Below are positions 61,316 through 63,150 of a DNA stretch of 64,000 bases, one piece after another. Within the stretch, counting starts at the first letter, position 1. Each line of letters opens with the position of its first letter. A model generated the notes under the pieces. It was not told the origin of the DNA, did no database searches, and saw nothing but the letters and a program-made list of their open reading frames with translations. The translations under genes and the position numbers were made by a program. Location: positions 1 through 64,000 of the forward strand of contig CALXEH010000002.1 in assembly GCA_944387285.1 (NCBI GenBank). The letters are read 5' to 3'. This stretch comes from an uncultured Oscillospiraceae bacterium. GTDB lineage: Bacteria; Bacillota; Clostridia; Oscillospirales; Oscillospiraceae.

Positions 61316-61352
61316 GCTGACCCGCCCGATCATATCGGGCGGGTCAGCTTTT
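61316..61352. terminator. Rho-independent terminator
   Basis: GCTGACCCGCCCGAT / ATCGGGCGGGTCAGC (61316-61330 and 61334-61348), loop CAT, then TTTT. It overlaps the 3' end of the convergent XRE gene. Confidence 0.88.
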
Positions 61353-61556
61353 CGGGTCGTCGGACAGGCCGGCGAGATAGTCGAGCGTCACGTTGTAGAG
61401 CTCGGATAGCCTGACCGCAAACTCCAGCGGCAGCGCTCGCTCGCCTCGCTCATACTTTGAATACAGGGACTGGTCACAGTGCAGATAATCCGCGACCTGC
61501 CTCTGGGTCATGTCCGCGTCCTCACGCAGGTCGCGTATCCTGAGCCTCATTTTCAT
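61344..61556 (-). CDS. XRE-family helix-turn-helix regulator
   Basis: About 70 residues, a single HTH: RIRDLREDADMTQRQVADYLHCDQSLYSKYERGERALPL, then a short helical tail. A Cro/CI-like repressor fold is expected. Starts: GTG 61559, ATG 61556 or ATG 61550; the promoter -10 is so close that the message has almost no leader. Two AGGAC-N5-GTCCT operators around the promoter suggest autorepression. It diverges from the RHH gene. Confidence 0.9.
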   Translation of the reverse strand: MKMRLRIRDLREDADMTQRQVADYLHCDQSLYSKYERGERALPLEFAVRLSELYNVTLDYLAGLSDDPKS

Positions 61557-61566
61557 CACCGGATTG

Positions 61567-61596
61567 AATATACCAAAGGACGATATGTCCTATCAA
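61567..61596 (-). promoter_or_regulatory. XRE gene promoter
   Basis: On the minus strand TTGATA (61591-61596), an 18-base spacer, TATATT (61567-61572). The spacer contains operator 1. Confidence 0.65.
61577..61591. promoter_or_regulatory. Operator 1 for the XRE regulator (candidate)
   Basis: AGGACGATATGTCCT: AGGAC and GTCCT arms around five bases, lying between the -35 and -10 of the XRE promoter. Confidence 0.7.
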
Positions 61597-61601
61597 GATT
61601 T

Positions 61602-61616
61602 AGGACTATCTGTCCT
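61602..61616. promoter_or_regulatory. Operator 2 for the XRE regulator (candidate)
   Basis: AGGACTATCTGTCCT: the same arms as operator 1, centred 25 bases away, upstream of the XRE -35 and between the two divergent promoters. Confidence 0.7.
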
Positions 61617-61641
61617 GTCTGCTGCTCCCTGGCCGCGTTGA

Positions 61642-61670
61642 TTGGTACCATATAGATATACCGATATCAT
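61642..61670 (+). promoter_or_regulatory. promoter of the RHH gene
   Basis: TTGGTA (61642-61647), 17 bases, TATCAT (61665-61670). The RHH start follows 20 bases later. Confidence 0.5.
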
Positions 61671-61690
61671 AACATATTAGAGGTGATATA

Positions 61691-61885
61691 TTGGCAAAGG
61701 ACGAACTGGTGCTCAGGCCGAAGCGCGTCAGGGGAGAGGACGGCTACCGGACCTTCTCCGTGCGCGTGAAGGAGGACACCGTGGCAAAGCTCGACGCCAT
61801 CGCGAGCCGCACGGGGCACAGCCGCAACGAGCTCATAGGCATCTTCCTCGAATACGCCGCCGAACACTGCCGCGTGGAGGAATGA
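61691..61885 (+). CDS. Ribbon-helix-helix (CopG/Arc-type) DNA-binding protein
   Basis: 64 residues. RTFSVRVKEDTVAKLDAIASRTGHSRNELIGIFLEYA shows the RHH beta strand and two helices. The start codon is TTG with AGAGGTGAT six bases upstream. There is no toxin gene next to it. It may be a regulator or antitoxin remnant, paired with the XRE gene across the operator region. Confidence 0.8.
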   Translation: MAKDELVLRPKRVRGEDGYRTFSVRVKEDTVAKLDAIASRTGHSRNELIGIFLEYAAEHCRVEE

Positions 61886-61892
61886 CTGCGCC

Positions 61893-61921
61893 TTGACACC
61901 TGCCGTTCCCGGGTATATAAT
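61893..61921 (+). promoter_or_regulatory. consensus promoter of the SPT-like gene
   Basis: TTGACA (61893-61898), exactly 17 bases, TATAAT (61916-61921). This is a perfect sigma-A promoter, the best in the window. Confidence 0.92.
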
Positions 61922-61968: not shown

Positions 61969-63150
61969 ATGGATCTTTTCGCCAAGTGTGCGGCCTATAC
62001 CACGGCCCGCGAATGCAGGGAAAAGGGCATCTACCCCTATTTCCACGCCCTGGAGTCGAGGCAGGACACAGAGGTCATCATGGAGGGCCGGCGGCGCATC
62101 ATGCTCGGCTCGAACAACTACCTGGGCCTGACCGCCGCGCCGGAGGTAGTCGCCGCGGCGGAGGCGGCGCTGGCCGAGTACGGCACGGGCTGCTCGGGCT
62201 CGCGCTTTTTGAACGGTACGCTCCGGCTGCATCTCGAGCTCGAGCGCGAGCTGGCCGACTTCGTGCGCATGGACGGGGCCGTGACCTTTTCGACGGGCTT
62301 CCAGTCGAACCTGGGCATCATCAGCGCGCTGGTGGGCCGGGGCGACTACGTCGTCTGCGACAGGGAGAACCACGCGAGCATCTACGACGGCTGCCGCCTC
62401 TCCTTCGGCAAGATGCTCCGCTACCGCCACGCGGACATGGACGACCTTGAAGCCAAGCTCCGCGCCGTGCCGGAGTCGGCGGGCTGCCTCATCGTGACGG
62501 ACGGCGTGTTCTCCATGGGCGGGGACATCGCAAAGCTGCCGGAGATCTGCGAGCTGGCGGCAAAGTACGGCGCGCGGGTCATGGTGGACGACGCCCACGG
62601 CCTGGGCGTCATAGGCGAGGGCGGCCGCGGCACGGCCAGCCACTTCGGGCTCGAGGACAGGGTGGACGTCATCATGGGCACCTTCTCGAAGTCGCTGGCG
62701 AGCCTCGGCGGCTACATGGCGGCCTCGGAGACGGTCTGCGAATATGTGCGGCACAACTCGCGGCCCTTCATCTTCTCGGCCTCCATCCCGCCCTCGGCCT
62801 GCGCTGCGGCGCTCGCGGCGCTGCGGCTACTGCGGGCGCGGCCGGAGCTGCCCGAGCGCCTGCTGGGCCTGGCCGCCTACGCCCGGGCCGGGCTCAAGGC
62901 CCGCGGCCTGAGGATAATCGAGTCCGAGACGCCGATAATACCGATCTACACCTATGAGATGGAGCACACGCTGGTAAGCGCCAAGCGGCTCTACGACGCG
63001 GGCGTGTATGTGAATCCCGTCCTGCCGCCCGCGGCCGCGCCGGGCGAGTGCCTGCTGCGGGTCAGCTGCATGGCCACGCACACCGAGGCGCTGCTGGACG
63101 AGGCCATGGACATAATAGCGGAGGTCTTGGGGAAGGATGAAAACGCATAA
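61969..63150 (+). CDS. Serine-palmitoyltransferase-like alpha-oxoamine synthase
   Basis: 393 residues, fold type I PLP enzyme of the alpha-oxoamine synthase group. The PLP lysine (K241) lies in MGTFSKSLASLGGYMA, the TFSKS form typical of serine palmitoyltransferase rather than the GTLGKA form of KBL and BioF. Other landmarks are GSNNYLGL (47-54), TGCSGSRFLNGT (73-84), NHASIYDGC with His135 and VDDAHG with Asp208 and His210. It could condense serine with an acyl-CoA or acyl-ACP to give a 3-keto-sphingoid base. The SD is GGGAGG. The SDR gene overlaps its end. A BioF role is less likely as no bio genes are near. Confidence 0.82.
   Translation: MDLFAKCAAYTTARECREKGIYPYFHALESRQDTEVIMEGRRRIMLGSNNYLGLTAAPEVVAAAEAALAEYGTGCSGSRFLNGTLRLHLELERELADFVRMDGAVTFSTGFQSNLGIISALVGRGDYVVCDRENHASIYDGCRLSFGKMLRYRHADMDDLEAKLRAVPESAGCLIVTDGVFSMGGDIAKLPEICELAAKYGARVMVDDAHGLGVIGEGGRGTASHFGLEDRVDVIMGTFSKSLASLGGYMAASETVCEYVRHNSRPFIFSASIPPSACAAALAALRLLRARPELPERLLGLAAYARAGLKARGLRIIESETPIIPIYTYEMEHTLVSAKRLYDAGVYVNPVLPPAAAPGECLLRVSCMATHTEALLDEAMDIIAEVLGKDENA

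Follow-up and report, generated by a model that had tools for sequence, protein, structure and literature searches.

An XRE regulator with two AGGAC-N5-GTCCT palindromes in an Oscillospiraceae genome, a probable orphaned autorepressor with many Clostridial relatives

Near the end of the window, by which we mean the whole stretch of 64,000 nucleotides that was analysed, genes for an XRE regulator and an RHH (CopG/Arc-like) protein diverge from a gap of 131 bases, counted from the annotated XRE GTG (61559) to the RHH TTG (61691). The gap contains two 15-base palindromes, a proximal one, AGGACGATATGTCCT (61577-61591), and a distal one, AGGACTATCTGTCCT (61602-61616), neither assigned to a strand. 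Both are exact AGGAC-N5-GTCCT and their centres are 25 bp apart, just as an earlier note on this DNA had described. That note read the arrangement as a compact, phage-repressor-like genetic switch formed by the two genes. The question is which protein the palindromes serve, and whether the two genes belong together.

The XRE gene is encoded on the minus strand. The earlier note had given its product 70 residues, which is the length from the mechanical start at GTG 61559. Relatives keep a GGTGAT ribosome-binding sequence (61555..61560, minus strand) before an ATG, here 4 nt before ATG 61550, so the protein is 68 aa long (61344..61550). An intrinsic terminator with a 15-pair stem (61316..61348, minus strand) follows it, before a converging PALP-fold enzyme gene. 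The protein matches Pfam HTH_3 at 57.4 bits (1.4e-15; curated cut-off 23), and its AlphaFold2 model has five helices at a mean pLDDT of 95, residues 27-34 (QSLYSKYE) forming the recognition helix. The motif CDQSLYSKYERGER, which is invariant in the set of XREs associated with AGGAC operators (the AGGAC class) and present here, lies on helix 3 of the HTH model. Its nearest solved structures, by sequence and by fold, are the DNA-binding domain of ICEBs1 ImmR and arbitrium-phage repressors (7t8i, 9iaq, 9sf2). The label phage-repressor-like is hence right for the fold, while the protein is better described as belonging to a chromosomal Clostridial regulator family. As had been noted, there are no phage genes around; the neighbors are metabolic genes and a MarR regulator. 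A viral origin was considered and rejected, there being no AGGAC-class relative in viral contigs and less than 60% identity to any phage or plasmid relative. One fecal contig labeled as phage (L290) has a 25-bp operator pair of another class, and the inovirus repressor of L287 has no 25-bp operator pair.

By matching to consensus, as for all promoters described here, the XRE promoter is assigned as TTGATA-18-TATATT with an extended -10 (TG) at 61567..61596 on the minus strand. With the end of its -10 at 61567, a transcript start around 61560 is predicted, which leaves a leader some 10 nt long. The proximal operator is inside the -35/-10 spacer and the distal operator is 5 bp upstream of the -35, which agrees with the placement first proposed. 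The relatives have the same promoter geometry with TCAATA as the -35 in place of TTGATA. They also have a divergent promoter, of which this locus has a degenerate remnant at 61593..61621 on the plus strand, with TCAAGA (61593-61598, 3/6) where they have TTGACA and TGTCTG (61616-61621, 2/6) where they have TAWWAT. The RHH gene has a separate plus-strand promoter, TTGGTA-17-TATCAT (61642..61670), outside both operators and starting 26 bp beyond the distal one. Further to the right, a consensus-perfect promoter, TTGACA-17-TATAAT at 61893-61921, is found upstream of an aminotransferase-fold gene at 61969, and a similar one precedes the orthologue of that gene at L302.

Exact AGGAC-N5-GTCCT matches number 2 in the 2.4-Mb genome, both in this gap, against 3 for the reversed pattern used as a control. 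Single sites are thus at the chance level, and the signal is in the pairing. Among 300 genomes of the family, 6 have the pair pattern GGACN5GTCC-N12-GGACN5GTCC and none has its reversed control. In all 6, one of which is the source genome itself, the pair is directly upstream of an XRE relative, and in the other five that XRE is 61-69% identical to the one here. Sites with one mismatch in the source genome (101) are rarer than those of the reversed control (128), so no wider regulon can be claimed. Matches to structured RNA in the region were all below threshold.

A scan of genomes from 84,980 species gave 304 XRE relatives, and the best 80 were examined for sites. Nearly all of these 80 are from Oscillospirales-type Clostridia by their record titles, and many of the loci compared come from metagenome-assembled genomes. 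The earlier note had proposed looking for the sites near XRE orthologues, and there they are: two AGGAC-N5-GTCCT-like sites were found in 45 of the 80, with 25 bp between centres in 38 and 24 bp in 7, and in these 45 the proximal operator keeps the equivalent position. Another 23 have one site, which is the distal one, 10 have none, and 2 have other spacings. The distal site is present in nearly all relatives having any site, and the proximal, autoregulatory one is missing in about a third of them, hence not every relative would repress its own gene. In most relatives, the divergent TTGACA-TAWWAT promoter has a 17-bp spacer that the distal operator fills. With its two palindromes upstream of the XRE gene, the source locus belongs to the AGGAC class; the divergent promoter over the distal operator, a variable and optional trait of the class that usually comes with an MPDY-type small gene, is degenerate here. 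Seven Oscillibacter-like loci (L063, L089, L096, L103, L116, L119, and L121) have both operators and weak divergent promoters, suggesting that other arrangements exist. The locus L283 (genome G150) has an AGGAC-pair XRE, a second XRE, and three partner-protein matches within 3 kb, a layout that suggests tandem modules.

The partner in question is the usual gene behind the divergent promoter of the relatives, encoding a protein of 50-60 aa (MPDYKEMYLxLFRATEQAINxLIxAQxxCEExYI). A strong divergent promoter is associated with this gene (33/36 versus 20/36, Fisher p = 0.001). The protein has no match in Pfam, NCBIfam, PHROG, or PADLOC and no significant match in PDB, and since it is modeled as a single long helix, a fold search would be of little use. 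The gene was not found in the source genome, which is about 85% complete. The partner could be an antirepressor, as a lead only, because the nearest fold neighbors of the XRE include repressors that, by their entry titles, were solved or discussed with the small antirepressor AimX; the partner has no sequence link to AimX. A second family of small divergent genes (..LSDxxCxxxIxxxxEELGSxxxxRHDF; L009, L015, L019, and L105) is found beside XREs whose operators belong to several classes, which suggests that partner type combines freely with DNA specificity. In a genome of the same bacterial family (G122, loci L181-L199), a repeat of up to about 800 bp occurs about 19 times, most copies lying at the ends of contigs, with no XRE beside it. 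It contains an ORF of about 61 aa (MVDYKKMYLTMFNATEDAIN...) that is related to the partner protein, a leader of roughly 400 nt, and a terminator-like hairpin, and nothing in Rfam matches it at the gathering score. The ORF looks to be under purifying selection (crude pN/pS 0.23), and one copy has an early stop.

Hundreds of related XRE regulators exist, and many share the two-site layout with other site sequences. For 187 related XRE loci, we searched for the best mutually similar pair of palindromes at a distance of 17 to 45 bp, with shuffles as the control. A pair score of at least 22 was reached by 74 of the 187 loci but by 2 of the 935 shuffles; in 69 of the 74 loci the distance is exactly 25 bp. 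Distant XREs thus retain the 25-bp frame with other palindromes, making up at least 14 operator classes. Examples of recognition helix and operator are CDQSLYSK with TAGGAC, CSQVCYSH with TATAAC, CSQQVYSN with TACCGC, MSQTGYSK with TAACCT, CSQRIYSN with TAGCGA, TSQTMYAR with AGTAAA, and IDQRVYST with ACTATC. Across 57 distinct helices, operator similarity tracks recognition-helix similarity with a Mantel r = 0.56 (0/2000 permutations), a test that removes phylogenetic dependence only in part. Once the rest of the protein is accounted for, the partial r is still 0.52, which argues that the helix itself carries signal. Because the palindromes are conserved in orthologues and covary with the helix among paralogues, they are very probably operators of the XRE protein itself.

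This bears directly on the first alternative, that the palindromes occur by chance or serve another DNA-binding protein. The chance frequency of single sites in the genome is what that reading has in its favor; the conservation of the pair, its exclusive link to AGGAC-class XREs, and the covariation of helix and operator together make it hardly credible. The switch read by the earlier note, in which the XRE would control RHH and RHH would counter-regulate XRE through the shared intergenic region, is not supported. The RHH gene (61691..61885, plus strand, 64 aa, TTG start; Pfam RHH_1 24.2 bits, cut-off 20.5) is indeed divergent and adjacent, and a small divergent gene resembling RHH also accompanies three distant XRE classes (L020, L031, and L032), the L031 one, which was the one searched, matching RHH_5 below threshold. 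Against this, the 84 further AGGAC-class XRE loci that were inspected all lack this RHH, the other RHH loci examined have no XRE within about 1.5 kb, and the RHH promoter lies clear of the operators. The synteny points the same way. Five genomes of the same genus have no AGGAC-class XRE (their best XRE is 52% identical). In these five the genes to the left (cupin, PALP enzyme) have counterparts, as have those to the right (aminotransferase, short-chain dehydrogenase), but the two flanks are not adjacent, so the XRE-RHH junction is particular to the source species. RHH adjoins XRE by chance or recent rearrangement, and we regard a switch between the two as improbable.

We consider it quite probable instead that the locus holds an orphaned autorepressor, one that would have lost the divergent promoter and gene and kept the operators. 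We infer that the 68-aa XRE binds each AGGAC-N5-GTCCT palindrome as a dimer, filling the -35/-10 spacer at the proximal site and covering the stretch immediately before the -35 at the distal site, which would repress its own promoter. The ancestral layout, still seen in most relatives, would be back-to-back promoters with a common -35 segment and one operator per spacer, in which one protein may shut off both its own gene and the divergent small gene by blocking RNA polymerase at both promoters. Comparison with relatives points to loss as the direction of change in the source genome, where the XRE -35 would have improved from TCAATA to TTGATA and RHH would be a neighbor by happenstance. Counting against this reading are the relatives without a proximal site, the seven Oscillibacter-like loci, and the stronger conservation in relatives of the distal site, whose promoter is gone here. 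Also, the 25-bp distance does not make a whole number of helical turns, so it is not evident how cooperative contacts would form.

A biphasic autoregulator would put the distal site to a different use, with XRE bound there activating its own weak -35 promoter at low level and XRE at the proximal site repressing it at high level. It would account for the poor XRE -35 of the relatives (TCAATA, 3/6), for the distal operator just upstream of it, and for the distal site being the most retained. Restriction-modification C proteins are biphasic autoregulators, and they and phage/ICE repressors are structural neighbors of the XRE. RcoLS20 acts in this way at overlapping divergent promoters (PMC4207663). 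At the source locus, however, the XRE -35 is near consensus, so activation would not be needed, and in the relatives repression of the divergent promoter fully explains the distal site. Moreover, the centre of the distal site is at about -49 from the predicted start, beyond typical activator positions. We therefore find the biphasic reading rather unlikely.

Among known systems, the ICEBs1 ImmR and arbitrium-phage (phi106) repressors have the same XRE DNA-binding fold and are mobile-element repressors, whereas the XRE here is without mobile-element genes, an ImmA-type gene, or a C-terminal domain. Its neighbors are metabolic enzymes, the MarR regulator, and RHH, with no metalloprotease ImmA beside it, and the likeness noted is one of sequence and fold. 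RstR, the repressor of the filamentous phage CTXphi and also a small XRE repressor, is the best NCBIfam match; its types differ in operator specificity. Membership in that family is rejected, with NF041951 at 48 bits under a cut-off of 80, and in contrast to RstR the XRE here is chromosomal and without an rstA/rstB-like gene. The restriction-modification C proteins C.AhdI and C.Csp231I, small XRE dimers with paired operators at their own promoter, are fold neighbors with a weak profile match. No restriction or methyltransferase genes adjoin the XRE, which removes it as a controller of that type, and here the likeness noted is in fold, small size, and paired operators at the gene's own promoter. 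RcoLS20 of plasmid pLS20 controls overlapping divergent promoters, its own and another (PMC4207663), as a tetramer that loops DNA between two multi-site operators, and it runs a conjugation operon; here, by contrast, there are two single palindromes 25 bp apart and the divergent gene is lost.

We found no description of this Clostridial XRE family in the open literature, and it is apparently an undescribed large set of repressors with one geometry and many specificities. A tentative fuller picture, possible but less than probable, is of a large undescribed family that keeps two promoters back to back over a common -35 segment, each with an operator in its spacer at the 25-bp distance, while its DNA specificity has spread over at least 14 operator classes, and where the divergent single-helix proteins of about 50-60 aa may be antirepressors in a double-negative switch, as AimX is for related phage repressors. 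The source locus indicates what such a switch may become after its partner gene is lost. That an XRE should regulate itself through palindromic operators is nothing unusual; what is useful is the comparison set. With a fixed geometry and operators readable from the sequence, the family provides a natural table of helix-to-operator pairs, which would allow direct tests of the DNA specificity of XRE proteins and could be a source of repressors that act independently of one another.
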